This document shows positions 29,980-64,000 of a stretch of 64,000 nt of DNA, one piece after another. Position numbers and translations under genes: made by a program. The first letter of the stretch is position 1, and each line of letters begins with the position of its first letter. This DNA comes from Tricholomella constricta (taxonomy: Eukaryota > Basidiomycota > Agaricomycetes > Agaricales > Lyophyllaceae). The stretch covers positions 62,001-126,000 of the forward strand of contig JAACJP010000011.1 in the NCBI GenBank assembly GCA_013368375.1. The letters are read 5' to 3'. A model generated the notes under the pieces. It was not told the origin of the DNA, made no database searches, and saw nothing but the letters and a program-made list of their open reading frames with translations.

Positions 29980-30790
29980 CACATACAGGCACTACAATGT
30001 AGCGTGTCCCACTGTCCAGCGGGGCCATACATGTAGCCGTATTGACGGCACCAGCGGGGCCGCTGGAGCACCAGCGGGGCCACTACATGTAGCCGTGTTG
30101 CACGGTACCAGCGAGGTCTCTACATGTAGTTGCCTGGCATGGTATCAGCGGGCCGGCCTATATGGTGCTGGGGGCAGCGGGGTGCTAGCAGGGGGTTGCC
30201 CACCTCTGCGGACCTCCGCGGGTCGCTTCTTTTCGGGCATATCTGGGTGCAGCGGGTGGGGGGCTAGCGGGGGGGTTGCTCACCTCTGCGGACCTCCGCG
30301 GGTCGCTTCTTTTTGGGTATATATGGGGGCAGTGGGGTGGGGGGCTAGCAGGGGGGTTGTTCACCTCTGCGGACCTCCGCGGGTCGCTTCTTTTCGGGCA
30401 TATATGGGGGGGCTAGCGGGGGAGTTGCCCACCTCTGCGGACCTCCGCGGGTTGTTTTTTTGGGGGCACACCCAGCACTGCAGCGGGCCTGGGGGCAGCG
30501 GGGTGGGTTGCCCACCTCTGCGGACCTCCGCGGGTTGCCTTTCGGGCATATATGGAAGCAGGGTGGGGGCTAGTGGGGGGTTCCCAACTCTGCGGCCCTC
30601 CGCGGGTCACTTCTTTTTGGGCATATATGGGGGCAGCGTGGGGGGCTAACAGGGGGTTACCTCTGCGGACCGCCGCGGGTTGCTTTTTTTGGGGCATATA
30701 TGGGGGGCAGCGGACCTCCGCGGGTCATCTTTTACCTCTGTAGATCCTTGTCTGTGGGGCATACTACATGTAGTGTGTCTGGCAGCGGGC
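29980..30790 (+). repeat. KDZ1 left terminal inverted repeat and subterminal array
   Basis: The first about 190 bp are the inverted repeat with ACATGTAG words and cagcggggcc units. From about 30,190 to 30,730 a unit of about 70-90 bp recurs, containing cacctctgcggacctccgcg and ttttcgggcatatatggg. The right side (43,010-43,600) carries the same unit in opposite orientation. Open frames across it are by-products. Confidence 0.85.
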
Positions 30791-30971
30791 CTCTAAGTCT
30801 GCGGAACAATACATGTCCGCGGGTTGTTACATTCTCACCTAGATGCTATATTTTCAAATCTGCGGGGCTCATTTCAAGCCATATGTCCGCGGAGCTCCGT
30901 TACCGCAAGAATATTCATATTCAAACCACTGACAGAGGTGCACATAAGTATGATGAGTCCAATCCCCCTTG

Positions 30972-31557
30972 TTATAAATCATCCTCCCGAGGCCCATCAA
31001 TTTCTTCACGCATGGTACGAAATGCACTTAGAGCAGTTTCCTCACTGTGAAGTTTGGCAACCTCCACCAGGTAAAGCTGACGAGCCGCGGAGGCATATGA
31101 TACGTTGTGGAGTTGTTGAAATGCTTTGATCTCAGCGTGGAGACCAAGGAGCTCTCGCTGGGTCATTGGCTAATAAATGACTGTTAGTTTTGTTAAAACT
31201 GTGCAAGTAAACGATTTACAGGGTCCGCGGGGACTAAAACGGAACCGGAGGCTAGAGCCTGGAAACCCCCATCCTTGTGCATATGTGGCTGATCAAATAG
31301 GTAAGCCATGAAAGACAATGATCAGCAATTGTTCCGCTTACCCCCGGATCTGCCTCAGCCTTCTTCAACTCTTTTGCCTTTAGCGCCTCAGTAAGCAGCT
31401 TCTGCTCCGTAGAAGCGGCCAAAAATTGGGGAACAAGGTACTCTTTCTCGCCAGACTTGATGACAACATGTCCGCGGAGCGGTGCAGACTGTATGACTGC
31501 GGGGTTGGGTTGCGCAGAGGTTGATGAGTTATCAGTGTTCATGTGTGTGGTGTTCAT
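30972..31557 (-). CDS. KDZ1 gene A: small three-exon accessory protein
   Basis: Exon 1 (31,557 to about 31,345) encodes a polar N-terminus, then EKEYLVPQFLAAS and a Lys-rich helix. A short middle exon encodes ALASGSVLVPADP. Exon 3 (about 31,170-30,972) encodes PMTQRELLGLHAEIKAF, then SYASAARQLYLVEVAKL. The last intron ends immediately before a conserved P-(M/L)-T codon run. The same three-exon design and motifs (YLVP, then LHAE, then SYAAA..QLY, then A.L.S) occur in KDZ2 gene A and in the gene at 48.8 kb. I recognise no known domain; it looks all-helical. It is divergent from gene B, with 285 bp between starts. Confidence 0.72.
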
Positions 31558-31842
31558 CAGTGCCTGAACAAGGTCCAGAAGAGCCTCGACCTTTATGGTC
31601 TGGAACGGCCTTGACCTTCAACGTGTGATAAGAACCTGGTAGAACAATGAGGAATGATTGATAAGAGAAAATAAGAATCTGGTAGAACAATGAGGAACGA
31701 TTGATAAGAGAAAATATTATATTTAGACACCGGTGTCACGTGATAGTTGTTTAAATTTTCAAAATTTTCCCCCCCTCTTTCCTCACTCTCATATCCGCAA
31801 CCCCGCGCCCCAACCCGCACTCCAGCTCCGCGCACTAGCTTC
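31558..31842. promoter_or_regulatory. Bidirectional promoter region between KDZ1 genes A and B
   Basis: Contains a tandem duplication of about 50 bp (gaacctggtagaacaatgag ... gattgataagagaaaat, twice, 31,629-31,718). This is the only spacer between the two divergent start codons. It lacks a CCGCGG core, unlike most neighbouring stretches of the same length. Confidence 0.5.
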
Positions 31843-33811
31843 ATGTCTATTCTCATCCTCAAATCTATTGACCAGGAGCTTGCCATTGCGGTCGCAAGCG
31901 GGGATCGTGCCGCCCTGGCCGCGGTCTACAAGAAAGCAGTATGGTTCATTTTTATTTGACTTCCCTTCAGATTACTGACTTCACTTTATTTATGTAGAAA
32001 AAAGTCTGGCCCGAGGCAAAGGCCAGCACTGACCCAAAGGTGGTCGAGGCCCGGCTCGCGTCTCTCCTCGGCGCCACTATCAGGGAACTGCAGGGCATTC
32101 AGCACGGCCCCACGGACTTCGATGAGCGGCTCAAGGGCCTCCGCAAAATTGTGCGGGTGCATGAGCGGGCATCCGCGGCCAATGCTGCAAGGGCTGCGGA
32201 GGAGGCAAGGGCCGCAGAGGAGGCAAGGGCCGCAGAGGAGGCAAGGGCCGCGGAGGAGGCAAAGGCCGCGGCGGAGGAGGCGAGGGCAGAGCTGGCGAGG
32301 AGAAAGAGGGAGGAGTTGGAGAAGGAGTTGAGGGAGAAGGCCGCGGAGGAGAAGGCCCAAAGGCAGGCCAAGAAAAGGGCAGAGAAGGAGAGGAAGGAGG
32401 CAGAGAGGGAGCGAAAGGCGCTGGAAGAGGAGGAGAGGGCAAGGGCAGAGAGGGAGAAGGAGAGGGTGAGGGCGGAGAAGGCCGCCCGCAAGAGCGCCTC
32501 CAAGGAGAAGGCCGTGGACTTGGAGAGGGCAGAGAAGGAGAGGCGGAGGAAGGAAAAGGGGAAGAACAGGGAAGTAGCGGAGCCCGCGGGTGTAAAGCCC
32601 GGTAAGTTCACTTCTTTCTTTCATTGTTCATACTGACCATTTATTCAAGGGCCCCGTATCCGTGCCGCGGACCCCCTCCCCTCCGCTGTGGACATGGGCC
32701 GCTCATTTCAGGACTTGGCCCGGGAGGATGATGAAGACATGGACGCGTCGCTCTACGACCCCCCATGTGCGCGATGCCTGCGGAAGGGGCTGGGCTGCTT
32801 GAAACCGGGGGGAACGAAGGCGACTGCATGCTTGCCTTGCAAGTATGCAAAGCAAAGCTGCATCCATGCAGCAGCGCTCGGGGTGTCCGACTCCGCGGGA
32901 TGGTCGAAGCCCAGCAAGCGGGCAAGAAACTTGACCCCAGAGTATGTCCCAAGCGAGGAGGACAACGCCGCGGGCCCGTCCAGTAAGTCTTTTCTTTTTT
33001 GGTTCACACTATTGTTAACACCATTGCAGTGACCCGCGCTGAGCGCGCCGCTGCAACGTCCGCCCCTGCCATGTCCGCGCCCTCCGAGTCCGCGGAGCTT
33101 GCTGCATTGCGGTCCACCATGAGCCTCATGGAGGCCAGGGTGAAGCAGCTCCTCAAGCGTGACAGGGAGAGGGCCTTGGATCTGGAGCTCCTCCATTTGG
33201 AGGTGGAGGAGCTCCATGAGAAGAACAAGGTGGTGAAGGAGGCAGGGATGGACAATGCGGCGTTGGGGGAGCACCATGGGACTGAGCTGTGGCTGATCCG
33301 CAAGCGGTTGGTAAGGCTTGAGAGAAGGGGAGCCGGGCAGAAGGTAACACACACAGAGCCACCTGAGGCTGACACCCGGCTGTCGACACCCCCGGAGACG
33401 CCTGCGCAGACACCTGGGTTGCAGGATGTGCCTGCAGAATGGGCTGCAGCATTCGCCACAGACAACGCCGCGGACCCCGTCGCTCTCGGAATAACGGACA
33501 TCTGGAAGACATCCCCACCTCCGCCCAAAACAACTCCGCCCCCCCTCCCAACATCCGCCAATTCCATGGCTTCATCGGCCCCTCCGCGTGCTTTTCCATT
33601 GGGCAGGCCAAGCCGCTTGTCAACTCCGACATCTGCACCATCCACCCCCGCCAAGTCCGCGGATCCGCAAAGTCCTCCGCCGGCCCCCAAAACCCCCTCC
33701 CCAAGGCTGACCACCCCACCACCCACCACCCCGAGCCCCCCTCCCAGCCCTCGAGGTGAAAAGCGCAAGGCGTCGGATGAGGGTGGTGGTGATAGGCCCT
33801 CTAAAAAGTGA
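31843..33811 (+). CDS. KDZ1 gene B: coiled-coil protein with GAL4-type Zn2Cys6 cluster
   Basis: Four exons: 31,843-31,938, about 31,998-32,601, about 32,649-32,981, and about 33,030-33,811. After a short N-terminus (DRAALAAVYKKAKKVWPEAKA) comes a long Ala/Glu/Arg/Lys helix (AAEEAR repeats, about 32,180-32,570), a clear coiled coil. Exon 3 carries CARC-x6-C-x10-C-x2-C-x6-C near 32,766-32,862, a full Zn2Cys6 pattern with the basic LRKGLG loop between Cys2 and Cys3. Exon 4 has a second heptad-rich helix (MEARVKQLLKRDRERALDLELLHLEVEELHEK), then a Pro/Ser/Thr-rich tail ending in a basic KRKASDEGGGDRPSKK. Known Zn2Cys6 proteins bind CGG-type triplets, often as coiled-coil dimers. The element is full of CCG-CGG, so B is the prime candidate reader; that link is inference. 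Confidence 0.85.
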
Positions 33812-34055
33812 TGTGCACCCCGCGGACATGATTTTTTGGCGACCCTGTGGACAATCTTTTTTTTTGCAAACCCGCGGACCTTATCCTTGTTTTTTACCAA
33901 ACTTACCAATATCTTGTAACACTTCTTCAAATATTAGCAAGTAGAAGAAGTAAATTGTTTTATATATTCAAAGTACTATGTACAAAATAATAGTGCTCTT
34001 CAAAATCAGAATTTTCTCAAGTAAGTAAAATGTGAATTCAAGTACAAGCAAAAGA
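33812..34055. other. Convergent 3' spacer between KDZ1 genes B and C
   Basis: AT-rich and non-coding, with two CCGCGGAC words just after the gene B stop (near 33,819 and 33,871). It holds the 3' ends of both genes. Confidence 0.5.
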
Positions 34056-36253
34056 CTAGCGGCGCTTTGATCTTCCGATGCCAACCCCCGCGGACTTCTT
34101 TGTTTTGGCTCGCGTTGTGGTCCCATTGCGTGTGCGGCTGCCCCTGGTATTGGCACCAAAGTCCGCGGCCTCTGCAAGCAGTAAATCCTGCTTTGATTTC
34201 TTTCGCCTAGTCTGTCCTTCAACATGCTTGCGCTTGCGTGTAACCGGAGGTGGGGGCAGAGTTGGTGTACCAGGCGCAGAGGGAGTAGGAGTGTTGGGCG
34301 GTGGATTGAGGAGCTGCATTGTTGCCGGCACCATATCCCGTGGCAGCCCTTCACCAGGCCCATTGATGGTTGGCTGTGTCGGACGTCCGCGGGCATTTAA
34401 GCAGTGCATTGTTGTTTCATCAATGGTGACCTGACTTTCATTGATGTTGAGACTGTATTCATTAGTCTGTTCTCCAGGTCCGCGGGGTTCGTTGGGTGCT
34501 CCGCGGGGTGCGTTGGGTGGTCCGTGGGAGTCGTTATCTTGTGATTGATTCTGATTGTGTTCTGAGAGTTCATCGGGTGGTCCGCGGGGTCCGTTATCTG
34601 GCGATGGACTGAATTGATTTGGTGAAAGTCCTCCGGGGGGTGACAGATGTTGGTTTTCATTTGGTGCTGGACTGCCGTGTTCGCCTTCACCATCACCGCC
34701 TTCCAGGTCTGACATGGAAATAAGGCTTTCTAAGGGGTCCGGAGCCGGTGCTTTTTTTTTGCCCTTCTTCCGCCTTGCTTTCTTTGCTGCTGCCGCAGCG
34801 GCCAAAGCTTCCTGGTCCTTGCGGGCCCCATAGACTGCCTCCATTCTCTCCTTTTTCTTGTTCAAGTAACAGGACCAGCGAAAGGTCGTTGAGGGTCCAA
34901 GCCTTTTCTGGCGGGAGCGCCAGAAGTCGAGCAACTCCCGGAGTTCACTCAGTCGGAGGTTCCGTGGGTCTTGAATTCGGATGTCCGCGGGCACGTACTC
35001 CGCGGAGATGAACATTCCATTGTCCGCCTTTATGGAAGTGAATGGAGGGGATGAGTAGAGGTGTCCCGATGCTAGTTCTGTAAAAAATTAGTATGGGTGG
35101 TCTAATATGACATTATCACATACTATAATGATGTTTTAGGAATGTGCGGACCAGAAGCTCCATGTCATCTTTGCTCTGTTGCACACCTTCTACCAACTCC
35201 GATAGAATGGGAAAACCGTCATTTTGTTGATCCAGCTGTAGGTCTGGACGTGGCTGAATTACTGTATCAGTCTGGTGCAGTGGGTCTGGTGCAATAGATT
35301 CTTGGAGGGAAAGGACATAGTCCATAAGCTTTCTTTTGAAGTCCTTCACCATGTGCGGAAAGGTATCAATGAAACCTTTGCTGATCACTCCTGCATTTGC
35401 CGCAATGCTGTCATGACTACTCCGCGGTGAACATCAGCACAAGTCCGCAGAGTCGATGAACAACTCACGCCCGAACATTCAGTTGCCCATCTTGGCCTTT
35501 CCATACCACAAAGGTAAGGGACAGCATGCCCATCTCTCGCCACCTGTTGGCATCCTCATTCTCCACTCGTTGAAAGCCCCGCTTATCCGCATTCCTGAGA
35601 TAAGAAGGATCAACTCCGAGATGTCCGCGGACCCCGCGGAGTTACTCACTTGCGCTGCTCCTCAGGGGGAAAGCCCTTGGTGCTCCACTCACGGGCAGTG
35701 GCCTCTGCCTCCTGGAGTTGTTGCGGAGTGAGTTTGTTCATCACCCGTGCCAAAGCCTTGTTGCGTTGCTGGAAGGCCGCGGTGGGAGATTCATCGACCT
35801 CCTCCAGTATCTCTTTCAACTCTTCGGTAATCAAGCCGCGCATTGTCCGATTGACTACCTGGCGCGCAGTAACCTTCAAATTACCCGATGACTGGTTATA
35901 TGATGGGTAGGGCCTCCAGTTGTTCCTCACCCAATCTGCCAGTTTCTGTATGCTGATCAGTGTGATGATACAGAGATACACACTCTAGCCTGACGGACCG
36001 TGGTAGCTGATGCGGACTTCTTGTCGGTCTTCGGCTCTGTTCCCTTTGCCTTCCAGAAGTTAAAAATATCAACCAAGACTTTGTCCCTAAAAATGGCCGC
36101 CCTTTTTGCCTTGTCCGACTCTGACCGGTACTCCTCTCGGTACTTGTTGAGGACCGCGCGCTCGTCAGCCGGGTAACGGGGCTCCTTGCTTGTCTTCTTC
36201 AGGGCCCCAGCGGCATGTGGGACTGTTTCTGGTGTAAAAATATTTTCGGACAT
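34056..36253 (-). CDS. KDZ1 gene C: basic accessory protein of unknown function
   Basis: Several exons: 36,253 to about 35,990 (MSENIFTPETV...ADERAVLNKYREEYRSES...KVLVDIFNFWKA), about 35,945-35,650 (LADWVRNNWRPYPSY...ATAREWSTKGFPPEE), a middle exon with a VVWKG segment near 35,500, about 35,410-35,130 (MVKDFKRKLMDYVLSLQE...NDGFPILSEL), and about 35,080-34,056 (DPRNLRLSELRELLDFWRSRQ...SCYLNKKKERMEAVYGARK). The last exon ends in a polar linker and a basic tail (TRKRKHVEGQTRRKKSK; GIGRSKRR) that looks like a nuclear localisation signal. KDZ2 gene C and the gene at 45.9 kb share these blocks in order. No known domain is recognised. It diverges from gene D with 254 bp between starts. Exon ends are approximate. 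Confidence 0.7.
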
Positions 36254-36507
36254 GATGGAGCTCCGTAAAGAAGATTTCCTATTTGGGTCAAAAAGTGTTG
36301 AACTTCACGCTTGACAGTTGTCCCACAGTACCCCATTTGGCAAGGAAGTTTCCAGTTTGGGTAATATGAGGCACGGGTACAATCGATGGCCCCGATTGTG
36401 AGTGCAGCTGACCTTTGCACCATGAGGACATGTCCGAGAGTAATCAGTGATACATCAGTAGACAGGTTCTGATTTTTCCACCAAATCAGATCTCACCCTT
36501 ACCCACC
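36254..36507. promoter_or_regulatory. Bidirectional promoter region between KDZ1 genes C and D
   Basis: Short spacer between divergent start codons. It lacks perfect CCGCGG words but has a tgtccgaga half-site-like stretch near 36,431. The arrangement is the same in KDZ2 (60,396-60,731). Confidence 0.4.
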
Positions 36508-39500
36508 ATGTTGCGTGCAGTAAAGCGCACACGTCGCAAGAAGGATGAAGTCCTTCAGGAAAGTTCTCGTTCACATGCCATGGATGTCGAGACAACAGTC
36601 AGGCATACCCAGAGGGGTGACATCGTGGAATCCAGGAGTGTCCCTTTGCGCAAGAGGTCACCGGACCCTGTTACATCTGCCCCTCAGGGTGTGCAAACCC
36701 ATGTCCAACCCTTTGAGCATTCGGACATTCACTCAACGGAGCTGGATGACACTGATGAGGTTGCCCCCAAACGGGCCAAGGTGAATTGTTCTTTGATGTA
36801 TTGTGTACATGTAACTGAATCAAAGCACAGACACAAGCTGATTACCTTCAAGAGTTTGTGAACCATGTTCCAGAGCTGTTGGAGGGGCTCCTTGGGAGAG
36901 AGTACATTGAGAATCAAACTCAATGTTCTGATTGTCCCAAGGGCAACTATGGACGTTGGCGTTGCCGAGATTGTCTCAGTGACAGGATACTCTGCCGGGG
37001 TTGCATGCGGACAACTCACAGGGACAATCCTCTGCATCGCATTGAGTTCTGGACGGGTCAATACTTCCAGACAGCTCAGCTGCAGGAGGTTGGTACCTAC
37101 TTGCTGGTCCCTCACTCCTCCGGGAAAGCACTCTGTGATACGCTACAGCTGCAACAGGAGCAATTGGAGAATTACCAGGTGGAATACGACGATAAAGAAC
37201 AGAAGAACCACCGCACAGAGCAGCAAAATGACCCCGCGGGTCGACATGCCAACTCCGCAGATGCCGCGGACGTGACTGAGCAGACTTCCTATGATGCAGA
37301 GGACAATGATTACATGGCGCGCTTGAGCCGTGCTTATGGTCAACAGCCAGAATTTCATCCAATTGCTGAGGCAGGGTCTACTCTGGACACAGTTGAAGTC
37401 GAAGTGGACGAGGAAGATGACAATGACACTGGCCTTAATGATGACCTTCCGACGAGAATGCCACGGCACGATGCTTTCAACAATCGTTATGTGCGCCTTG
37501 TACATGTCAATGGAATTCACTACATTCCACTTGTCTACTGTTCATGCCGCGGAGTCCGAGAGGTCAATACAGACCTGATGCACAAGCGATTGGTGCCTGC
37601 AAGCTTCACACGGTACAATACGCTCTTTACCACTGCAGTCCTTGATGACTATCGCCTTGCAAACCTGGAATGTAAGGCATCTGCATTTCAGTATTGGCAC
37701 AAGCTCAGCCGGACTACGGCTGCAGCAACAAGCTCCGCGGACATCGACAACTTTTATCGCGAACTCCGCCGGCTCTCGCGTTCATGGAGATGGCTCAAGA
37801 AGCTCAAATGGGGTGGTTTTGGCAGCAATAACAGAGATCCCATGCAGACCACCGCAGGGGAGCTTGCCATCTTTTGTCCAACATGTCCGCAGCCAGGTGT
37901 GAATCTCCCCGCGGGGTGGTCCGCAGACCCGAATAAGTGAGTGCATTAAGTGACGACTGATCATTGTTATTGACATTACATGCAGAAAAGTATACATGAG
38001 GTCTTTTGTGGCAGACGGCAACTTCAAAGCGGATCATGTTCGCCAAAAGAACAATGCAATGGACGTTTGGCTGTCGGAAGGGTCAGGTATGATGGCTAAC
38101 CGGGCCAATTATAATGAGTTCCTGAAGGAAGCATTCAATGTGATGACAGTGAGTCAAGTCCGATTACTTCCGCGGCATAGCCCGTGGGGTTCATCAACCC
38201 CGCGGAGTTCTGTAATAACGTCTATTTTAGAAAGCCCCTTGCGAGAATCAGTTCCGCGCTGTTGAGCAGGCAATGCTTGTGTCCAAAGCCTGTGATGTTA
38301 AAGGAATTGTAGCCATTGCATGTGCGCGGCATGGCTGTTTTGCCCCCAACAGCCTGTCGGACCTCCACGCGGGTGAGCAACAAAAGAATGTGGACTGGGC
38401 ATTCCTCCAGGCGCTTAAAACAACAAATGTGGAAGACATCGACCAGGTGTTATTGATCTATGATATTGCCTGCCAATACATGGTACACTTTCTAAAGCGC
38501 ATCGGCCACCTACTCCCCCCAGGAATGACTATTGCTCAGGCCATTGGACTACTCCATGTTCACGGTCACAAAGACGATTGCTTTAACCGCTTTGCAACTT
38601 CATTCATTCCAGGCGCTGCTATAGTTGCGGGTGAAATTCTGGAGAGTTTGTGGGCCGTGTTGAACACTGTGTCACCAATGACCAGAACCGCAACGTTGGC
38701 ACACCGAGCGGAGATCCTGGACGATCATATGAATAATTCTAACTGGAAGAAACTCCTGCAGATGTGTTAGTAAAATTTCATGTATTCTGTTACCATCACT
38801 GACAATGTCCGCGGAGTAGCGGTCACATTGTGTCAGACATACGAAAAGGCGACGGAGATGTTGGAGACTGCCCAAGAATATTTCAAAGGAGTTGCCCAGG
38901 GAATAAGCCGCACACAAACCGCAATTTGGGAGGCGGAGATCCAGGAGGCCGAGCAGAGGAGGGTTCATGATGTCAAGGCTATGGACATCCTCAAAGCGCG
39001 CACCGCGGACATCAGGCAGCCAGGAGATTCCAATGGACCTGTGGAGCACGCAACAGCTGAAGAGGAGTGGATACAATCAGGCCTTGATATCGAGGAGCGC
39101 CAGTAAGACATTTTATCTCTATTTGTCTTCCGGAGCTGAACAGTTTCCATCTAGAATTGGCCTTCAAGACAAAGTCCGCCAACTTGTCCGTGAACCGCGG
39201 GAAGATGTCCGCAAAGCCGTCGAAACTGAAAGACAAAGCCTACGTGCACAAATTGATGTGTTCACGTCAAAACAGCCGAGCATAAATTTCATTCCTTTGG
39301 CCTCCGCGGAGGATGTGCCAGGGAACGTCGAAGCCTTTGATAACCTAGACGAGAACCCCGCGGACCTGCCACCCTCCGGAGATGCCGCGGTTCCGGCACA
39401 GTCAGGCCGTCCTGCACCTGCAGACGGACCCCTACCACCAGAGCAGACACCTATTTGCCTGCCATCCTCAGCTGGGGAAACTGAGTCACATCTGGCTAAA

Positions 39501-40219
39501 CTCGAGCTTGCATTGCGCAAGGTTCAAGCGGAGCGTCATCTTCAGAACCTCCGTAATGCAATTGCGGAGAAATCATTTTTGTACTCACACGTCATCCGAG
39601 TTGCTCCGCGGAAGGGTGTGGTGACACGTGCGCGGGGGAACATCACCACCCTCAATTGCACAATCACCACCCTTTGTCGGGTGTATGACAAATGCAGAGC
39701 AAAGCTCGCCTGTCTGGGTGCGGATGAAGGCACACTGGAAAGGTACAAAATTCTCGACAAGAAGCATGTCAAATCGAGCACCGCCATACTGGATCCCAAC
39801 ACACCGGGCTCAACTGATATCCGAAGTACCAGTCTTTCCTGGATTTGGCAAATACCTGGTCAAGCGACAGATAGTCCGGAGGCTGTGCTGGAGTGTATGT
39901 CCTTTGGCGTCAAGTCCGCGGAGTTGTTACTGACATGATACCAATAGTCCAACGTGTTCATTTCTTGAGGGCAAGGGCACAAAAGGATCGATGGACAGAA
40001 GAATTCACTCTTGTTCAATATGAAATGACTTGGACCACCCGATATTTCCTTCATCAGGCCCAGATCTGGATAGAGCGCGGTGCGGAGGCCGCGGCTGCAG
40101 GACAACTGGGCCCGACAGCATATGCACGGCGGAAGACAGCCATGTGGAGGGAACTTGCTTGGTTGGCGGAGCAACGATTTAAAACTGTCAATACATCATA
40201 TGTAACATTGCTTCAATAG
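36508..40219 (+). CDS. KDZ1 gene D: KDZ transposase with CxC2-like cysteine cluster
   Basis: Exons include 36,508-36,780 and 36,831-37,936, then shorter ones starting at 37,986, about 38,231, about 38,820, about 39,155 and about 39,950. The CxC2 cluster reads CSDCPKGNYGRWRCRDC, then CRGCMRTTHRDNPLH (36,928-37,045), preceded by YLQEFVNHVPELLEGLL. Next come the KDZ landmarks VHVNGIHYIPLVYC, YRLANLECKASAFQYWHKLS and FYRELRRLSRSWRWLKK. The catalytic core has FVADGNFKADH (38,005), CARHGCFAPNS, LIYDIACQY (38,455), HVHGHKDDCF and GEILESLWAVLN (38,630). A long helical C-terminus ends at 40,219. All junctions join in frame. CCGCGG words occur in exons (37,736, coding S-A-D) and in introns (38,170-38,203; 38,807-38,813). 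Confidence 0.87.
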
Positions 40220-40582
40220 AATGGACCATGCAGTTTTGTGTTTGCGGGGTGATAAGAATGTCCGCGGACATGAATTGTTAAATGTTGCCCAATGTCCGCA
40301 GATGTTGCCCTCCGCGGAGCCCCATAGCCTTCCCAATCATGGTGGTGTCTCGGACAACATGATGTAACAACACCACGAACATCATAGCTTATACTGGGGA
40401 TACCTTTGATTTTGAGTTTGCTTGGAGGCTAGAGGATTACATTGATTTTGGGTTTCCTTTAAAAGCTTTGCTGTGATAGTCTGTGCAGTCATAAGAGATC
40501 CGACAGGTGTCCCCGCTGTCCACCTGATTATCAAAACGTCCGTAAAGGCAACATCCGCGGACATTTGTAAGCAGCACGGGTC
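40220..40582. other. Spacer between KDZ1 genes D and E
   Basis: Non-coding; carries repeated tccgcggaca-type words (near 40,260, 40,312 and 40,553) and several tgtccgcag half-sites. It probably holds the gene D terminator and the gene E promoter. Confidence 0.5.
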
Positions 40583-43811: not shown

Positions 43812-44091
43812 ACCAAGGATCGGGCCAGACGCGCGTCTCCCGCCTGCTCGACCTGGTGTCGGCAGGTACTTCTCCCCTCTAACTAAATTCGCTATAGTCC
43901 TCTATGTTTATTGCTATATATTATTTAGACAATTATATTTGTTCTCTTTCGATCAGATATCTTCTTGTACCTATTATCATGACATATTGTTCTGCTTTGA
44001 CTTGCACCGCCTCGCTTGGGCCTCTAAAAGTCCTTGATTTAAAGGGTGCATGATCGGTAAGGACTACTCCTTCAAAGATATACAATCATTC
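43812..44091. other. Flank of KDZ1: one minisatellite unit, then AT-rich spacer
   Basis: Begins with the ACCAAGG target duplication, continues with one unit of the array that flanks KDZ1 on the left, then about 170 bp of AT-rich sequence without a gene. Confidence 0.5.
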
Positions 44092-50039: not shown

Positions 50040-50265
50040 GCCTCGCAAACTCAAGGTTCGGATGGTGGACTGGGAAATGGGGCCGTCGGAAAACATAATA
50101 CGACGGCGACGGCTAACGGCCGTCAAGACATGCGGGTTCGTATAAGTGAACCCACTGCACATGCTCAGCCTCGATTTCAAAGTCGAGGCTACTCAATGCC
50201 TGACCCGATTCGCAGGAGTCAATCAATTGCGGACGGAATACATGCTGCTGGAGAGCAACATAATG
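50040..50265. other. Unassigned spacer between two LTRs
   Basis: No gene or repeat recognised apart from short local inverted repeats (acggcgacggctaacggccg near 50,102; ctcgatttcaaagtcgag near 50,170). Confidence 0.3.
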
Positions 50266-50757
50266 TTAGGGCGACCTCAGCGCAGAGCTTAGTCGTGCTG
50301 GCAGAGGGGAATCCAATGTTATATTATGTACGGTAGAGAGAGCGTAAGTAGACCTACCTGGCAGAGGGGAATCCAATGAGAATAGAGTAAAGGATTCCCC
50401 CATGTCAGGAGGATGACTATATACGAGTAAGATACGTGAGGGCCGGCTCTCTGGGGTGTATGGTACGTAAATGATAACGGATGAGCAGCGGCGCGTGTAT
50501 GTATGTACACGTTCCCGACGCTGTCCGATCCTCATGGCTCAGGGTGCGGGCATGAGGTCGGGCGACCGACGTCGGGATGTCGGACGTCGGGATCGGGCGC
50601 GCGCTGGAAGGGGAGGTAGGGACAGGGATGTATAAGTATGTACACCGACACTTGGGTCGGAGCGTCGGGGTCGGGGGCGCGATCGGTCGGGAGCGATCGC
50701 ACGTGTCGGGGGACAGTCGGTGAGCGTCGGAGGGCGTGAACGGGCGTTCCCCTAACA
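50266..50757 (-). mobile_element. gypsy-2 3' LTR, 492 bp
   Basis: In minus orientation it starts TGTTAGGGG after a polypurine tract (aaaaggggggg) and ends CGCCCTAACA. It shares with the gypsy-1 LTR the CGACC-rich middle and the paired ggattcccctctgccag words. Confidence 0.8.
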
Positions 50758-53538: not shown

Positions 53539-54475
53539 CAGGTAGGGGCATCACAGTGTATTGTATGTCACGGCCCACAGGGCCAATACATGTAGTGTGT
53601 TTGACGGAACGAGCGGGCCCGCTGTGTCTCCAGCGGGCCTCATACATCGTATCAATGCTCACGGCGCAGCGGGCCTTATACAATGTATCCACTCAGACGG
53701 TGTCAGCGGGTCCCGCTGGTCTGTGCTGACAGGCCTGATACGATGCACACCGCGGCATGCACGATACAGTGTAGCGGATTGCACGGTGCAGCGGGTTTGT
53801 ACAAGGAAGGTCAGAAAGTTTTGGCAGGACGGCACGCCGTGGCTGCCACGCCGCGGCATTCATAATTGGTGCCGCGGCATGCATAACACAATGTATCGGG
53901 CAGCACGGTGTAGCGGGTGTGTACAAGGTATCGTGTGGGACGGGGCCAGCGGGTCCGTTACAGGTACATCAGTTGGTGCCGCGGCATGAGATTCAATCTA
54001 GCACTGCCGCGGCATGCATAATACAGTGTATCGGGCAGCACGGTGTAGCGGGTGGTACAAGGTATCGTGTGGGACGGGGCCAGCGGGTCCGTTACAGGTA
54101 CATCAGTTGGTGCCGCGGCATGAGATTCAATCTAGCACTGCCGCGGCATGCATAATACAGTGTATCGGGCAGCACGGTGTAGCGGGTGGTACAACGTATC
54201 GTGTGGGACGGGGCCAGCGGGTCCGTTGCAGGTACATCTTCTGGTGCCGCGGCATGCATAATACAATGTACCACTGCCGCGGCAAACACATTTAGTGCCG
54301 CGGCATGCATCACACAATGTATCGAGCTGCACGGTGTAGCGGTTGTGTACAAGGCATCATGGTATCAATATTCACTTGTCAACAACCTACTTTCTGTTTC
54401 GTGTAATACCGCGGTGTTTCAAAAGGACATAGTGGCAAGACTTGTGATAAATGTGCTTCAATTGTCAAGTGTAAA
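53539..54475 (+). repeat. KDZ2 left terminus and 135-bp subterminal repeats
   Basis: The terminal about 250 bp contain tacatgtag and cagcgggcc words as in KDZ1. From about 53,860 to 54,360 a unit of about 130-135 bp recurs: ggtgccgcggcatgagattc near 53,976 and 54,111 and a variant near 54,243, each with gtgtatcgggcagcacggtg and ggacggggccagcgggtccg. Open frames here are by-products. Confidence 0.82.
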
Positions 54476-55326: not shown

Positions 55327-57656
55327 ATGGATTCTTCCGCCGTTCAAACCACCCTCGCTGCGACTGACCGGAGGCTCCTCAAGGCCGTAAAGGCTGGGAT
55401 GCGCGATGAGTTCGTCGCCATCTACAAGGACTCGGTAAGCATCGCTTTTTAATTTTTTTTTTCTTTTCCAATTATTGAATATTTGAGCAGAAGGACTTCT
55501 ACATATGCGTCTCCGGCATCCGAGACCCCCAAACAATCAAGCTATTCAACAGCTCGTTCTTTGGGCTCACGCTCAAGCTGCTTCAAAAGGTCTCTCGTGA
55601 GACCGAGAAGTTTGCTGAGCACCTCGCCGCGTACCGGACGCAGGCTGCGGAGTTCAAGAAGCGGGTCACCGTGGTGGAGGAGAAGGAGGACAGGGGTGAG
55701 GGGTCATCAAAGGTCCAGGCGGGGACCGCGGCAAGCCTTGTCGCTGATGACATTGTCGCAAAGAAGGTGGCAAAAAGGAAGGCCGAAGCAGAAAAGGACG
55801 CGGCCGCGGCAAGAAAGACCAAGGCGGAGGCCGCGGCACGAATGAAGGAGGCTGCGGTGAGGGAGCGGGAAGAGAGGAGGGTGAGGGAGGAGGAAGAGAA
55901 GAGGGTGAGGGAGCAGGAAGAGAAGAGGGCGAGCAAGAAGGCAAAGAGGGAACTGGAGGCACGGAAGAGAGAAGAGGCCGCGGCGGCACAGAAAGAAGTG
56001 GAGGAGGCCGCGGCGCGCAAAAGGGAGGAGGCGAGGAAAAGAGGGGAGGCGAGGAAAAGAGAGGAGGAGGCCGCGGTGCGGAAGAGAGAGGAGGAGGCCG
56101 CGGTGCGGAAGAGAGAGGAGGAGGCTGCGGTGCGGAAGAGAGAGGAGGAGGCCGCGGCCGCGGTGGCAAAGGCCCGCGCTCCCAAACCCAAGGCCACCAA
56201 GAAGGACAAGGGTAAGCAAAAGGCACCCGCACCCCCCACACCCCCCACAAGACGACCATCACAGTGGGGGAGCCCATCCACTCATCGACCGCGGCCACCT
56301 TCACCGCACTGGGAGCAGAAAGCGGTGGGGAGACAACTTACATGGAAGTTGACTCAGATGCAGACCCTGCTGGTGCCCAGAGAACAGCCCCCGCCCCCTA
56401 CAACCCAACACTCTACCACCCGCCCTGCAGTGCCTGCGTTCGCTTCAATCAAGAATGCAGGAAGCAAGCATCCTCAGCCACGGCATGTCAAGCTTGCCGT
56501 GACAAGAAGAGGCACTGCACATATGGCCCCTTGAGGAAGAAGTCAGCTGGGACTTCAAGAGTGGTGGGTGATGAGGTCCCGGTGGCTGGGCCCAGCAAAC
56601 CAAGTAAGTGTAAAATTTGTATTTCAGTTTCAAAGCTAATTAAGAGTAGGGAAAGATAGAGGTGCATCTCACAAGGCCGCGGCCCCCACTCCTGGCGCTC
56701 CCACCGCTCCCCCCACCGCGGCCCCTATTCCTCCCGTCACCGCGGTGGCCCTGACCCCTCATGCCGCAGTAAACGATGATGAAATGTCTTCCACCATCAG
56801 GTCAATCAAGGGGACAGTGCGTGAGCTGGAAGACTTTGCCGACGCCATGGATGAGGACACCACAAACCTCCGTTCTGAGGTCACTGCCCAGGAGGCCAAG
56901 ATTGAGCAGCTGGAGCAAGGGAGGGAGGGTCACTCTGAGGCTCTCGGGAAGATGTCTCGACGGGTTGGAGTGTTGACAGAGGCGGTCCGCCGGATGTCAG
57001 CATCCATTGCGGTCCTGACAGACCGAGTGGACTCTATGGAGTGCCGGGTGTTTAGAAAGAGGGTGGTGATGCAGGAGGCAAGTGAGACGGAGGGTGAGTC
57101 TTCCCCCAACGTTGATGCCGCGGCAGTAGCTTCCCCCCCCAACAACGTCGATGCCGCGGCGGGAGACGGCGCAGAAGGTGGTGAGCAGCCTCTTGGTACT
57201 GAGGAGTCTGACGACCTTCACGCCGCGGCGAGCCCCATGGACATGGACACCGCGGACATGCATGCCGCGGCTGACTTCCCAGCACCGGTGTCCCCGCCCC
57301 AACCAACCACCACCCTGCCACCACCACCACCACCACCACCACCACCATCACCATCACCACCACCACCGTCGCCATCCCCCTCGCCCTTTCCACATGTGCC
57401 GGACAGCCCTCCCCCACCTTTGCCGCCTACCCTCCAAGTGACTTCGCCAACCCCGGAGACTGAACACCTAGCTCCCCCTCCAACCGCTACAACTCGTCGC
57501 TCACGGTCACGTAGCCGCACACCGGCACCTATGGATCAAGATGGTGAGCCACTTCACCGGACGCGTAGCAAGGCTCCCATCAGCACAGATGGTGAAAAGC
57601 GGAAGGCAGATGACGATTTGGATGAGGCCGCGGCGAAAAAACCGCGCCTCAATTGA
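55327..57656 (+). CDS. KDZ2 gene B: coiled-coil protein with GAL4-type Zn2Cys6 cluster
   Basis: Four exons: 55,327-55,435, about 55,492-56,212, about 56,265-56,602, and about 56,660-57,656. Exon 2 is a long Glu/Arg/Lys/Ala helix (VRKREEEAAVRKREEE repeats), a coiled coil. Exon 3 holds CSAC-x6-C-x9-C-x2-C-x6-C near 56,428-56,520, the Zn2Cys6 pattern, with a VRFNQE loop that differs from LRKGLG of KDZ1. Exon 4 has another heptad-rich helix (LRSEVTAQEAKIEQLEQ), a Pro run, and a basic tail (GEKRKADDDLDEAAAKKPRLN) parallel to that of KDZ1. The exon 2-exon 3 join needs the acceptor at 56,263 to keep frame. Ala-Ala pairs encoded by GCC-GCG-GC are common throughout. It is the likely reader of GCCGCGGC, by inference. 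Confidence 0.83.
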
Positions 57657-58048: not shown

Positions 58049-60395
58049 CTAACGTCTACGTTTATCTGCTTTGACTTTTGTGGACCTTGTTACCGCGGGC
58101 TTGGGTGCCGCGGCCCGCGCTGCCGCGGACCGTGTTGCTGCCCTTGATGTAACTGCCATGGCATCCTGCTGCCTTGTCGATCTCCTACTGGACCCCTCTA
58201 GAATCTGCTGCGCCTCATCTAACAGCCTCTGAGTGCTCCTTGACTTCTTAGTTCCCATCGTATGAGCTTCATCGCGCTTTCGCTTTTGTGATGCCGGTGT
58301 AGTGCTGGATAGTTGAGGGGTTGGAGACCTTGATGCTGAAGGTTCATTTATGGGTGTGGTGGGATTATCCTGCTTCAATAGCTCTAGTGCAGTCTCAGGC
58401 ACGCGGTACTTTGGTGGTCCGTCTGCAGGGCCATTGATTGGGTATTGTCCTGCAAAGCCACGGGCCATGAGCTTGCGCATGGTATCATCGTCTACAAGTA
58501 CACTTTGGACTTGAGGAGTGTCCTTGTGTGCTGCATTGAAATTAGCCTCCTGGTTGTGGTGCCCAGACATGCCTTGGTCTACCCCAACAGTCATATCCTC
58601 ATCTGGTGACATTTCGCCGCGGCCTCGACTGCCGCGGTCCGCACCGATATTTGGGCTGGCTGCCTCAGTGTTAGGTGGCTGTGATCTGGTATTGAATTGT
58701 GTGGCTGTTTCAATTTCGCCGCGGCCTTGACTGCCGCGGTCCGCTCCGGTGTTTGGGCTGGTGTTAGGTTGCTGTGATCTGGGACTGACTGCAGTCTCCC
58801 CTGGTTCCATTTCGCCGCGGCCTGGACTGCCGCGGTCCGCTCCGGTGTTTTCGCTGGCTGGCAACGGGGGCATAGATGTCAACCCTTCCAACAAAGGGTC
58901 AATATGCATCCTTTGTTTATCTTTCCTCTTCTTCTTCCTGATTGCCTGTTTTCGTTCTGCCGCGGCCTCCAAATCCTTTCGTTCTCCATATACTGCTGCA
59001 ACCCTCTCCTTCTTGGTGTTCAGGTAAGAGGACCACCGGAATGCAGAAGAATGACCATGTTCCTCCTGGCGCTGGTACCAAAAGTCAAGGAGCGATTCTA
59101 ATTCCTTGAATCGAATGTTGCGTGGATCACAAATTCTCTGTCCCGCGGGAAGATATTCCGCGGCAATAAATTTGGCGCACTCTGCCTCCACAGCCTTGAA
59201 TGGTGTCGAGTTTTTTGTACGGCCAGAGGCAAGCACTAAAGGAGTATGTCAGAGAGTCAACACAGCAATGGACAACAACATACTGTAATGGTAATTCAGA
59301 TAGTAACGTACGATCATTTCAAGATCGTTGTGAGTTTTTGGAGTGTCATCCGGAGATGGTAAGATCGGAAAACCGTCCTCATGTATCTTCACTTGGATGT
59401 TGGGCTGCGCGGCCTCGAGAGGGTTTAGGGGGATGGGGTCAAGTGACTGCTGTACAGCAACCACATAATCCATAAGCTTGACTTTGCAGTCTTGAATCAA
59501 GGTAGGAAAGGTTTCTGTAAACTTCTTATACACGGCGCCCATGTTGTGAGCAATTTTGTCGTGACTACGCCGCGGAACGTCAGGCCGCGGACAGTTATGC
59601 AATGTGAAAAATTACTTACGCGCGCACACAAAGGTGCCCTTCACTGTTGGTCCATGCAACAAATGTAAGGGAAACCATTCCCATTTCCCGCCACCGCCGT
59701 TTGTCCACATCTTCCACCCGTGTGAAGCCATGTTTATCTGCAATTCTGTGGGCAGGGCAAGTGTTAGCCTCATAACGATAGCCGCGGCGTGCGCCGCCCG
59801 CCGCGGTGACACTTACTTTGGCCTTTCCTCCTGTGGATATCCCTTTCTACTCCACTCCTGAGCTGTCGTTTCCAATGCTTGGCGTTCATCAGGGGCCAGG
59901 TTTTTGATGACATTGGAAATGGCCTTGTTCCGCTGCTGAAATGCCTCGGGGCATGCTGGGTCAAGGTCGTCCACACCCAGTATGTGCTCCAGTTCATCAT
60001 GGATTGCGTCGCGCTTAGTGCGCATGACCACATGTCGGAGGGTGATGTTCAATTCCCCCATAGATTTCTTGAAGTCCGGGTACACCCTCCAGTTGTTCTT
60101 CACCCAATTGGCAAGTTGCTGTGGGCAGTTTAGCAAATGATTATGGGTTGAATGGTGCATAGTGTACCTTTACTGCTTTTTGTGAAGCTTCGTCCGTTTG
60201 GGGATCCTTCTTTTGCAAGCTCCAGTAGTTGAAAATGTCAACAAGCACCTTGGATGTAAAAATCTTGGCTCTCTTGGCTGCATCTGGCTCTCCCCGGTAC
60301 TCGTCCTTGTACTTGTTAAGGACATCACGCTCCTCTCTTGAATAGGCACTTTGTTTTCTGATGGTCTTTGGTGCCTCGGCTTCGTTGGCTGACAT
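58049..60395 (-). CDS. KDZ2 gene C: basic accessory protein of unknown function
   Basis: Exons correspond to KDZ1 gene C: 60,395 to about 60,170 (MSANEAEAPKTIRK...ERDVLNKYKDEYRGEP...KVLVDIFNYWSL), about 60,120-59,820 (QQLANWVKNNWRVYPDF...ATAQEWSRKGYPQEE), a short exon near 59,690, about 59,560-59,300 (LIQDCKVKLMDYVVAVQQ...HEDGFPILPSPD), and about 59,235-58,049 (DPRNIRFKELESLLDFWYQRQ...SSYLNTKKERVAAVYGERK), then Gly/Arg-rich repeats (ADRGS-GRGEM, three times) and a basic tail (STKVKADKRRR). The GADRGSxGRGE repeats are coded by ccgcggcctcgactgccgcg-type sequence on the plus strand, so the dispersed word appears built into the protein. The start was chosen by homology. Function unknown. Confidence 0.7.
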
Positions 60396-60731
60396 GTGAG
60401 AGTGTAGTGGAAAGGAATGACCAAAATGGGACAACAAACATGAGGTTGGTTCTCGGGTCAAGTTAGAAATTTGATCCGCGGCCAGCTGACACTGCGCAAA
60501 CAAATCCATCGCTTTGATTAACATCTGGCCGGGGTCCGACAGGACATGTGTAGCAAGCAAGGCAGTACATGTGTCTGCAGGGAGGTCATGTGTACAGAGT
60601 TCAATGCCATGAGGAGGTTCAATGCCATGAGGAGGTTCAATGCCATGAGGAGATGACATGGGGTGATTCAAGATCATTGTGAAGATTATCAACCATCACC
60701 AGGCTTTCTCTGTCAACCCTCTTTCCTTACC
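60396..60731. promoter_or_regulatory. Bidirectional promoter region between KDZ2 genes C and D
   Basis: Spacer between divergent start codons. It includes a triple tandem repeat of caatgccatgaggaggtt (60,602-60,656) just upstream of gene D, and one ccgcggcc word near 60,477. Confidence 0.45.
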
Positions 60732-63700
60732 ATGCTCAAGCGCAAACGCACCAAAAAGGATCCCATCCTTAGACAGACTGATCGGGTGCAGGGTGGCCTG
60801 GATGTTCATACATCCATACGGACTACTGCTCGAGGTGATGTTGTGGAATCAACAATGGTTCCTTTGCAGTCAAGGCCAATTATCCCTATTCCCAGTGCCT
60901 TTCCACGCATGCCAGTGCCCATTGGCTCAACCCAAGTTCCAGTAGATCCTGATAATGGAGGAAGTCATTTCAATGATGACATAGAAATACCAGTGCCCAT
61001 TCGTCGGACAAAGGTAAACTACTGTTGCTTTCCATTATTGCTTTGACAATGATTGGTGAACAGACACAAGCCAACTACCTACAGGAGTTTGTTGACCATG
61101 CTCCTGAGATGCTGCAAGGTCTACTGGCTAGAGAGACTATGCAAGAAAAGCACCCTTGCCCAGACTGTCCCCACAAAAATTATGCTCGATGGCGGTGTCA
61201 GGACTGTACCAGCCCCCGCATACTCTGCCGCCACTGTATGCGGATCAATCACCGAGACAATCCCCTGCATAAGATTGAGTGCTGGAATGGGCAATACTTC
61301 CGTACAGCACGACTGTGGGAGGTTGGGGCGTACATTATCGTCCCCCACTCATCCGGGGAACAGTTCTGCTCCCAACTTCAGTTTCAGCGCACCCGTCTGG
61401 AGACCTTTCAAACCCAGAAAGATATCATGGACCAGAACACCATATCCCAGCGGGGCTCTAAGCCACAGCAAGGTCATTCAACAGGGACATCGGCGGAAGC
61501 TCCTATCACAGAGGAAGAAGGCCTTGCGCCACACCATCAGTACACCGCGGAGAGTGTCATGGAAGTTGACACTATGGAAAACGATGCCGCGGTGCCCGAT
61601 ACCGCGGCCGCGGCATGCGATTCTGGATCAGCGGCATTTGAAGACACGGACTTAGGACAAGTGGCTGAGTCTGGATTAGCGGCATATGATTTGGACATGA
61701 ATGCTTCCGGCTCCGCGGCATCTAATGCCGCGGCCGCGGCATTTGAAGACACGGACTTGGCGGATGACGGCCCAGCCACTGATGAAGAGTATATAGCGCG
61801 TCTGGATGAGTTATTTCACCTCAGAGGTGGGCGAAAAACGGGTGACGACTTGGAAGATGACATGGAAGGTCGTGACACTCAAGAGACACCAGAGGACATC
61901 GAGGACGATGACCTGGACGAGGAATTCTTGGATCCACCGGACAGAAATGTTAGTTCTGTCCTTGGGCCGCGGCATGATGGACTGAACAATAACTATGTTC
62001 GCGTTGTGCACATCAACGGAATCCACTACATCCCTCTGGTCTTCTGCACTTGCCATGGCCAGTCAATGGTCACTATTGACCTAATGCATGCCCGCTTGAT
62101 ACCCACAACATTCACTCGGTACACAACACTCTTCACAGCTGGCGTTTTGGATGACTATCGATTGGCAAACCTGGAATGTAAAGCATCAGCTTTTCAGTAT
62201 TGGCAAAAACTTAGTCGTGCAACGGCCGCGGCGACGAACAGCGCGGACATTGATAATTTTTATCGTGAACTGCGGAGGCTTTCTCGTTCCTGGAGGTGGT
62301 TGAAGAAAATAAAGTGGGCTGGCTATGGACATGAGAAAGATGATCCAATGAACCCTGTCGCGGGTGATCTTGCAATTTTTTGCCCCGCATGCCCTCAGCC
62401 CGAGGTCAATCTACCCACTGACTGGAAATCTGACCAGAACAGGTACTTCCACCTGATTTCTTCCATAAAGTTAAGCATTTTAACAGATTGGAACACAGGA
62501 AAGTCTACATTCGGTCTTTTGTAGCAGATGGAAATTTCAAAGCAGACCATGTTCGCCAGCCAAACGCCGCGGCTGATGTATGGTTATCAGAGGGGGGAGG
62601 AATGATGGCCAAGAGGGAGGATTATCATGAGTTTTTGAAGACAGCATTCAACAAACTCACTGTAAGTCTATTTGGTTATGCATCGCCGCGGCACTGATTA
62701 CCTTGTCCGTGGCAGAAAGCCCCATGTGAAAACCAATTTCGTGTTTTGGAACAAGCATTGCTGACTTCCAAGGCTTGTGATGTGACGGGGATTGTTGCCG
62801 TTGCATGCGCCCGTCATGGTTGCTTTGCACCCAACAGCCTTGCTAACCTTTATGCTGGCGAGCAACAAAAGAATGTAGACTGGTCTCTTCTACAGGCAAT
62901 CAAAGCAACCAATATGACTGACATCGAGGTGCTTCTTTTTATCTACGACATCGTTTGCCAGTACATCATCCACCTTGATGATCGCATCGGACCCTCCCTT
63001 CCCCCTCAAATGATAATTGACCGCGCTATTGGCCTTATGCATGTCCATGGCCACAAGCCTGACTGTTTCTTCCGCTTTGCATCATCTTTCATCCCTGGTG
63101 CCGCGGTTGTTGCTGGAGAAATCCTAGAGAGCTTATGGGCCGTCCTTAACACCGTCTCCCCCATGACTAGGACAGCTACTTTGGCCCATCGGGCAGAAAT
63201 TCTGGACGACCACATGAATGATTCAAATTGGAAGAAGTTGCTTGACATGTGTGAGTAATAATGGTCTTACCGCGGTGTGTTGTATGCCGCGGTCATGTGT
63301 TGACTCCTAATATTTCTCTAGCCGCGGCATTATGTTCGAGATTCCGTCGAGCTACTGAAACCAGGGAAAGTGCCGACCTATATTATGATCAAATGTGTAA
63401 TGGAGTTCCGGTTGAGCAGATTGCTGAGTGGGTTGCAGAGATTGAAGAAGCGGAGAGGGAAAGGCTTAACGATCCCAAGGCCATGGACATTCTGAAGGCA
63501 CGCACTACAGCCATCGAACCCCGTGAAGAGTCACCAGAGGTCATGGAATGCTTAACACTTGAAGAACAGTGGATCCAGCTAGGAATTGACCTTCAAGAGC
63601 AGCAGTTAGTCTTTTGCATTTTATGTTGAACATCATTCTGACCTGATGTGCCAGGACTAGCCTTCAGAATAAAGTGAAGAGGTTGGTGCGGGAGCCGCGG

Positions 63701-64000
63701 GAAGAGGACCGCAAGGCAGTGGAGGCTGAAAGAGCACGTCTGCATACGCAGATTAACGTCTTCACAGCATTGCAAGCCCGCACGGGACATCATCATTCAA
63801 CCCCAGTCATTCCAGATGACCCTCCCGATGACATGTTTGACTACCTGGAAGATGATGAGATAGAAGGACAGGGTGACCAAGGGGAAGGGGCGGCAGGTGC
63901 AACGGAAAGAGGTGAGATGAATACCGCGGCACCAAATACCGCGGCACCAAATGGCGGGAGTGGCGAGATGAATACCGCGGCACGAAATGGTGGCAGTGGC
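60732..64000 (+). CDS. KDZ2 gene D: KDZ transposase with CxC2-like cluster (partial, runs off the window)
   Basis: It aligns with KDZ1 gene D exon by exon. Exon 1 starts MLKRKRTKKDP; exon 2 carries CPDCPHKNYARWRCQDC and CRHCMRINHRDNPLH (61,158-61,275), an Ala/acidic insertion built from GCCGCGGC words (61,500-61,760), VHINGIHYIPLVFC, YRLANLECKASAFQYWQKLS and FYRELRRLSRSWRWLKK. The core includes RSFVADGNFKADH (62,512), CARHGCFAPNS, FIYDIVCQY (62,939), HVHGHKPDCF and GEILESLWAVLN (63,120). The C-terminal helical region (KAMDILKARTTAIEP; LVREPREEDRKAV) continues to the window edge. No disruption is seen. Confidence 0.86.

Follow-up and report, generated by a model that had tools for sequence, protein, structure and literature searches.

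The locus described here raises the question of what a short DNA word does throughout a mobile element, and what reads it. It is a 64,000-nucleotide stretch of the Tricholomella constricta genome (contig JAACJP010000011.1, here C11, positions 62001–126000; "the window" below), which holds a KDZ transposon, K1, and part of a second, K2, both filled with the hexamer CCGCGG. We followed the word through the 44.09-Mb genome (118 contigs), including a third element, K3, which also lies on C11; the rest of K2 and the whole of K3 were taken from DNA beyond the window. Our analysis showed that the word is real, nearly element-wide and clade-specific, and that it operates at the level of DNA. Its reader is best explained as a zinc-cluster protein that the element itself encodes, and this pairing of word and protein suggests self-recognition among copies.

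Excess of CCGCGG in K1, K2 and K3

Against 3.3 copies expected from dinucleotides (the null used throughout for CCGCGG), K1 (29980–43811) contains 78 copies of CCGCGG; the complete K2 (53539–68784) contains 114 where 3.4 are expected, 72 of them in the part inside the window (2.1 expected), and K3 contains 91 (3.7 expected). The density, 5.6 per kb in K1 and 7.5 per kb in K2, drops sharply to the host level at the element edges and lies near that level between K1 and K2. The word is not common genome-wide, with 12,158 places (0.28 per kb) compared with 12,474 for the reversed word GGCGCC. Pairs of CCGCGG spaced 10–40 bases apart number 569 compared with 149 for the reversed pattern; among the pair matches listed (50 forward, contigs C1–C6), 29 fall in C1:1.154–1.164 Mb and C3:35–52 kb, stretches that also contain matches to KDZ and to gene B, the zinc-cluster gene described below. 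An earlier, sequence-only reading of the window had counted by eye about 25 copies in 31001–35040, about eight in 61501–62000 and about one in 44050–50040; our recount gave 25, 8 (four of them as GCCGCGGC) and 1.

Such an excess could be a side effect of composition, of repeats or of low-complexity protein, and some sites do fall within tandem arrays and Ala/Arg/Glu coding repeats. With the arrays masked by Tandem Repeats Finder (TRF), K1 retains 57 sites against 2.25 expected, K2 77 against 2.28 and K3 66 against 2.60, so that, as had been claimed, the word is not a tandem array (57 of 78 sites in K1 and 77 of 114 in K2 lie outside arrays). Conserved coding open reading frames (ORFs) hold 37 of the 57 dispersed sites in K1 and 55 of the 77 in K2, and in both elements the coding sites occupy all three reading frames. 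Codon-preserving shuffles (300 runs each) yielded a mean of 7.1 coding sites and a maximum of 14 for K1, where 43 are observed, and a mean of 10.2 and a maximum of 19 for K2, where 65 are observed. Because the excess persists outside arrays and over codon shuffles, it cannot be attributed to composition, CpG, arrays or codon use, and the check for GC, CpG and codon use that the sequence-only reading had proposed leaves the enrichment standing under both nulls.

Comparison of the elements with each other points the same way. Over 5,739 aligned coding bases, K1 and K2 are 57% identical and have 28 and 31 sites, respectively, with only nine shared, which suggests that some of the words came down by inheritance and most were acquired independently. 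At homologous codons, 19 of the 28 K1 sites that can be aligned are private, as are 22 of the 31 K2 sites, and the amino acids differ at many of them (SAE versus PPD, for example). Together with the at least 25-fold excess outside arrays, the excess over codon shuffles and the CpG-poor setting, these private sites make a by-product the least credible explanation of all. K3 keeps 22 of 25 K1 sites. A 6-base insertion in K3, relative to K1 position 38809, doubles CCGCGG within the coding region, a possible way of gaining words.

Element anatomy and the candidate reader

The features of K1 and K2 are as follows (window coordinates):

29980..43811, plus strand: K1, a complete Kyakuja-type KDZ transposon with 7-bp target duplication ACCAAGG, CA..TG ends and 78 CCGCGG
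29988..30174, plus strand: K1 left inverted repeat, 187 bp, 99% complementary to 43617–43803
43617..43803, minus strand: K1 right inverted repeat, 187 bp
30179..30713, plus strand: K1 left subterminal tandem array, units with CCTCTGCGGACCTCCGCGGGT
43010..43615, minus strand: K1 right subterminal tandem array, inverted relative to the left one
31998..33029, plus strand: K1 gene B, two stop-to-stop frames, a charged Glu/Arg/Ala-rich part and then the zinc cluster
32766..32861, plus strand: Zn2Cys6 cluster of K1 gene B, contact half CKYAKQSC
34059..36304, minus strand: K1 gene C, kept in three clades, no Pfam family
35783..37233, no strand: longest word-free stretch of K1, spanning the divergent C/D promoter (about 36304–36505)
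36451..42498, plus strand: K1 gene D, the transposase gene, with CxC2 in 36819–37937 and KDZ in 38231–38767
53539..68784 (the window ends at 64000), plus strand: K2, a Kyakuja-type KDZ transposon with 7-bp target duplication GCGACCC and 114 CCGCGG
53870..54284, plus strand: K2 left subterminal array, unit of about 134 bp with GCCGCGGC, with an inverted match near the right end
55479..57653, plus strand: K2 gene B region, frames 55479–56531, 56216–56656 and 56640–57653
56426..56518, plus strand: Zn2Cys6 cluster of K2 gene B, contact half CRDKKRHC, Zn_clus at 22.0 bits (cut-off 21)
58052..60695, minus strand: K2 gene C
60657..64000, continuing beyond the window, plus strand: start of K2 gene D, with CxC2 in 60980–62521 and KDZ in 62698–63255

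Both elements contain the KDZ domain PF18758 (E 6e-36, score 124.5, cut-off 26.6 bits) and, like the Kyakuja elements, TET-bearing ones included, they have a KDZ transposase, a 7-bp target duplication and CA..TG ends (PMC12730594). No target duplication is present directly outside the 187-bp repeats of K1, the true ends being eight bases further out; the limits given earlier for K1 proved exact, as its duplication and CA..TG ends show. Unlike the Kyakuja elements of PMC12730594, K1 has inverted repeats and neither K1 nor K2 has a TET/JBP match. That paper describes two L. bicolor families as lacking terminal inverted repeats and, because the statement covers two families, the K1 repeats are a difference rather than an exclusion from Kyakuja; Cryptococcus KDZ elements have terminal inverted repeats (PMC12810828). 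The portions covered of PMC12730594 make no mention of CCGCGG, 'subterminal', an element-wide word or gene B.

K2 and K3 are collinear with K1 in gene order. Gene C, kept in all three clades (see below) and divergent from the transposase gene, had no Pfam match in the exons scanned. K1 34479–40225 and K3 74885–80615 (window coordinates continued) are 93% identical over 5.7 kb, covering gene C and most of gene D, with much lower similarity in gene B and towards the outside; judged by these alignments, the elements look mosaic.

K1, K2 and K3 each have dense, inverted arrays with the word at their two ends. TNPA-type proteins compact elements or join their ends at subterminal repeats, and in En/Spm and Ac the transposase or TNPA binds repeated short sites that are dense at the ends. 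The KDZ sites resemble these in being repeated sites of a (here predicted) element protein, and the words could be sites of a transposition cofactor, with the zinc-cluster protein compacting the 14-kb element or joining its ends, all the more as gene B travels with the transposase gene. However, the KDZ-clade sites run through the whole element, and the 57 of 78 and 77 of 114 sites outside the arrays, reaching through coding DNA, exceed the needs of end recognition; we consider a cofactor role unlikely.

Gene B, upstream of the transposase gene, encodes a predicted Zn2Cys6 cluster of the form CX2CX6CX8-10CX2CX6C. Twenty short pieces around gene-B matches in the genome comprise 18 with an intact cluster and two without; the 18, together with K1, K2, K3 and a clade-III copy (F20a) and minus one near copy, gave an alignment of 21 clusters. 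Six cysteines and one lysine are invariant in 21 of these 21 rows, which were themselves chosen by their cysteine pattern. Pfam Zn_clus matches 16 of the 21 at E of 1 or less (best 3.4e-5); the K3 gene-B frame had no Pfam match. When the 21-row profile was compared with PDB, all six matching chains were Zn2Cys6 proteins (AlcR, LAC9, GAL4 twice, RSC3 twice; E 0.38–7), as were five of the six found with a four-row profile. In a predicted model of the cluster, each CX2C pair is followed by a short helix, and in a Foldseek search with this model 13 of 15 weak rows named zinc-cluster proteins. The K2 zinc-cluster frame (55479–57653) is 147 residues long in the window and 388–402 residues long in four other copies of the family, and gene B of this K2 copy may be broken.

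Zn2Cys6 proteins bind CGG triplets, usually as dimers. Judging from its predicted cluster, gene B probably binds the words of its clade. The yeast zinc-cluster proteins Pdr1/Pdr3 recognise CCGCGG (PMC3091778) and thus share with gene B the Zn2Cys6 type and its predicted site, although they are regulators of host promoters and belong to no mobile element.

Words and zinc clusters by clade

We sampled 20 copies of this Kyakuja-type KDZ clade: ten in clade I (K1, K3, L036, L040, L048–L052, L057; 93–100% to K1), two in clade II (K2 and L078, the latter 99.8% like K2) and eight in clade III (L037–L039, L043, L053–L056; 76–79%). All 20 bear a word. Ten of the loci (L048–L057) were added after the rule of one word per clade had been formed, and ten of ten obey it, L057 most weakly (8 versus 1.4); the weakest clade-I loci are L040, with ten CCGCGG, and L057, with its eight. 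Neither word is enriched in a comparison set of 32 loci from other KDZ families (L006–L035, L041, L042, several being copies of one family), where CCGCGG occurs 0–3 times and CCGG shows no excess.

In K1, the core is mainly CCGCGG followed by A or G, and in K2 it is GCCGCGGC: TCCGCGGA occurs 14 times in K1 and once in the window part of K2, and GCCGCGGC two and 37 times, respectively, in agreement with the different flanks noted by the sequence-only reading. Across clade I, the base after CCGCGG is most often A, next C or G, and rarely T; in clade II, it is C. Clade III has no clear excess of CCGCGG (1–4 sites) and has CCGG at 1.9–2.8 times expectation, its words being AYCCGG (picked after the enriched words were seen) and the direct repeats CGG-N3-CGG and CGG-N9-CGG. 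This clade-dependent CGG geometry is absent from three host stretches. In F20a, one of four clade-III stretches that we read (F20a, F66, F5 and F20b; 12.5–13 kb each), 37 and 40 such CGG direct repeats remain outside a hexamer array, where the shuffle mean, array included, is about 8.

A codon-preserving test of AYCCGG and CCGG (200 shuffles) covered five of the eight clade-III loci. AYCCGG exceeds all shuffles in F20a (24, mean 8.2), F66 (19, mean 8.7), L053 (15, mean 5.3) and L056 (9, mean 3.4), and is within the shuffle range in L054 (10, maximum 11); CCGG exceeds all shuffles in F20a, F66, L053 and L054, and does not in L056. CCGCGG is at the null level in all five. Conversely, coding AYCCGG in K1 is below every shuffle (0 versus 5.5), with K2 at 3 versus 3.2. 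The words are mutually exclusive. A word private to each family, as first proposed, thus did not hold, since K1 and K3 share theirs and the word belongs to the clade; the K1 and K2 flanks do differ. Of the idea that other KDZ families would each have a CCG/CGG word, the relatives in clade III, with their other geometry, bear out one part, and the 32 loci lacking both words do not bear out the rest. CCCGAC, raised in L022, L041 and L042, was dropped as a further private word because it is also raised between the elements (43.8–53.5 kb). ACCGAC/CCCGAC are raised in 9700–29979, 43812–53538, L022, L041 and L042, that is, inside and outside KDZ loci.

A tree of KDZ cores unites the 19 loci of this clade (100/100) and separates them from four other KDZ rows, with clade III at 100/99, K2 joining clade III at 98/99 and no internal order within clade I, in a bootstrap that had not settled. 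Genes B, C and D are all found in F20a, C and D in F66, and D matches only in F5 and F20b; the 5' parts of F66, F20b and F5 look replaced or interrupted.

The zinc clusters follow the same division, some rows having been assigned to a clade by the cluster alone: the contact half is C[KR]xAKQSC in nine of nine clade-I rows (linker 9–10 residues), C[RS]DKKRHC in three of three clade-II rows (linker 9) and CQxxKxxC in nine of nine clade-III rows (linker 8). Word and cluster type agree by clade in 15 of the 15 loci where both are seen (K1, K3, L048–L052 and L057; K2 and L078; L037, L043 and L053–L055). Within clade I, the cluster region falls to 42% identity where KDZ cores are 97–99% identical, with AKQSC and the word unchanged. 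A host protein might instead read the word, given that fungal hosts have zinc-cluster proteins of their own and that the binding of gene B to the word is a prediction. However, different words within one nucleus track the transposase clade and the gene-B type, and sites of a repressor should be lost, not gathered; a host reader is therefore very improbable.

Possible roles of the word

The word had been described as covering the whole element. This holds for coding and non-coding DNA alike, with the exception of one stretch of about 1.0–1.5 kb over the C/D promoter (60482–61544 at the homologous place in K2). The longest word-free stretch spans this promoter in K1, K2, K3, F20a and F66 (single p = 0.02, 0.04, 0.13, 0.095 and 0.003, respectively; K1 and K3 are related); in F5 it does not lie there, and F20b is not comparable. 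Gene B could be an ordinary transcriptional activator of the element with the internal sites as by-products, since yeast activators are known to use CCGCGG as a site (PMC3091778). The word-free C/D promoter speaks against simple activation of that promoter and fits a covering of the element body, and we rate an ordinary activator as quite improbable.

With words masked, the observed/expected ratio of CpG is 0.61–0.64 in K1, K2 and K3, with TpG/CpA raised, and 1.06–1.11 in three host stretches; this loss and gain is a pattern as methylation would leave. The genome has five DNA methylase matches, and the word, which contains two CpGs, persists in CpG-poor elements. CpG retention falls and then rises again with distance from the word and was not used as evidence.

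Among 113 typed KDZ places in the genome, 41 were put in the clade and 72 were other. A gene-B match lies within 22 kb of 35 of the 41 and of 10 of the 72; a TET/JBP match lies within 12 kb of one of the 41 (E 6e-4) and of 13 of the 72. There is therefore almost no overlap between the KDZ copies that pair the word with its presumed reader and those that have a presumed demethylase. None of the 23 TET/JBP matches listed is on C11, and the six above the Pfam cut-off have no KDZ place within 15 kb.

We propose that the length of the element is filled with sites for the zinc-cluster protein encoded by its own gene B. Site geometry and flanks would be clade-specific (CCG|CGG in clades I and II, with A or G outside in I and C outside in II; AYCCGG and CGG-N3-CGG in III) and, with many sites along about 14 kb, density would decide, so that the protein would cover its own clade and little else. 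Once bound, it would shield the body of the element from DNA methylation and silent chromatin and leave the C/D promoter free. We give somewhat better than even chances to the reading that K1, K2 and their relatives carry such self-encoded zinc-cluster sites for a sequence-specific anti-silencing of the VANC kind; for anti-silencing as the effect of gene B on the element, which we argue from comparison, the chances appear a little short of even.

The comparison is with VANC, the anti-silencing proteins of Arabidopsis VANDAL elements, for which word binding and demethylation have been shown, with words YAGTATTAY and, in related families, AGTTGTCC/AGTTGTAC (PMC5735166, PMC10398659). Both systems have an element protein other than the transposase, a short word that is dense in its own family and rare elsewhere (PMC5735166), families that are related yet use different words, sites that include tandem arrays, and a variable reader (presumed in the KDZ clade) beside a conserved transposase. 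The VANDAL case concerns plant Mutator-like elements with an unrelated protein and words that are mainly non-coding; the KDZ clade fills coding DNA too, altering its proteins, and what is new in it is the presumed zinc-cluster reader together with the CGG geometry. The VANC family domains DUF1985 and DUF287 had no match in the gene A, B, C and D frames scanned with Pfam. On this comparison, the KDZ word system would work like VANDAL/VANC and is no member of that family. Bacterial DNA uptake sequences and Chi sites are likewise short self-recognition words running through coding and non-coding DNA, although they cover whole bacterial genomes at lower density with other readers and uses. Our literature search (titles and abstract openings, with subscription journals thinly covered) yielded nothing on element-wide KDZ words or a KDZ zinc-cluster gene.

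The even spread, the clade specificity and a palindromic core without orientation would also suit a mark of self DNA against self-insertion (target immunity), with either gene B or the transposase as its reader. K1, K2 and K3 lie within 60 kb and are not nested in each other, but this is also expected by chance, and we think target immunity improbable.

Several observations weigh against the reading of zinc-cluster binding and anti-silencing. The Zn_clus matches of the whole K1 and K2 exons are weak (E 0.57 and 0.066, below cut-off), the best PDB profile E is only 0.38, and the cluster model has a predicted local distance difference test (pLDDT) score of 68 and a best Foldseek E of 1.4. Within clade I, gene B diverges to 42% identity while the word stays, only the contact half being constant, and three clades offer few independent word changes. 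The 5' parts of F66, F20b and F5 are poor in CCGG and have no gene B in the stretch read; ten of the 50 gene-B places lack any typed KDZ neighbour within 22 kb; and the TET/JBP matches near KDZ are below the Pfam cut-off (E 2e-6 to 6e-4). Among eight close clade-I copies, conservation of the word does not exceed that of other hexamers (0.113 versus 0.114, with 0.131 for hexamers holding two CpGs), and no new word sites appear, although a gain could have occurred at just 12 one-step sites. Variation is lower in word columns than in their flanks (13.5% versus 27.5%, p = 0.002); compared with other G/C columns (14.7%, p = 0.80), it is not reduced. Word CpGs vary in 15 of 42 sites compared with 91 of 176 elsewhere (p = 0.085). 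Thus, of the selection for recognition put forward by the sequence-only reading, the clade-specific words and the element-encoded Zn2Cys6 cluster speak in favour, and ongoing selection between close copies is seen only weakly.

The rest of the window holds other repeats. A KDZ domain of a distant family, with about ten genome copies and neither word, lies at 5603–6292, and a 137-bp tandem array at 7928–8553. Array pieces like the K1 ends, with several CCGCGG around them, lie at 14489–14629 and 27763–28242, on either side of 12 kb of DNA with similar direct repeats at its borders (14941–15043 and 26884–26975); this is perhaps a short relative split by another insertion. A Ty3-like frame at 50761–53550 (minus strand) has reverse transcriptase, RNase H, integrase and chromo domains, and K2 starts beside it.

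More tentatively, fungal KDZ elements may have evolved a protein-and-word self-code independently of plants, in which each clade would spread its own CGG geometry along its length, protein codons included, and encode the zinc-cluster reader; within one superfamily and one nucleus, they would escape methylation by an alternative to the TET/JBP demethylase. If this is true, transposon anti-silencing by sequence-specific recognition would be no peculiarity of plants and would have arisen at least twice, with unrelated proteins. The three clades, with their many gene-B variants, would provide a natural series of proteins and words for how zinc clusters choose CGG geometry, and an example of a DNA word overwriting protein sequence within a mobile element. 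Barcode-bearing and TET/JBP-bearing KDZ elements would then escape one defence by two routes, a prediction for methylation maps.

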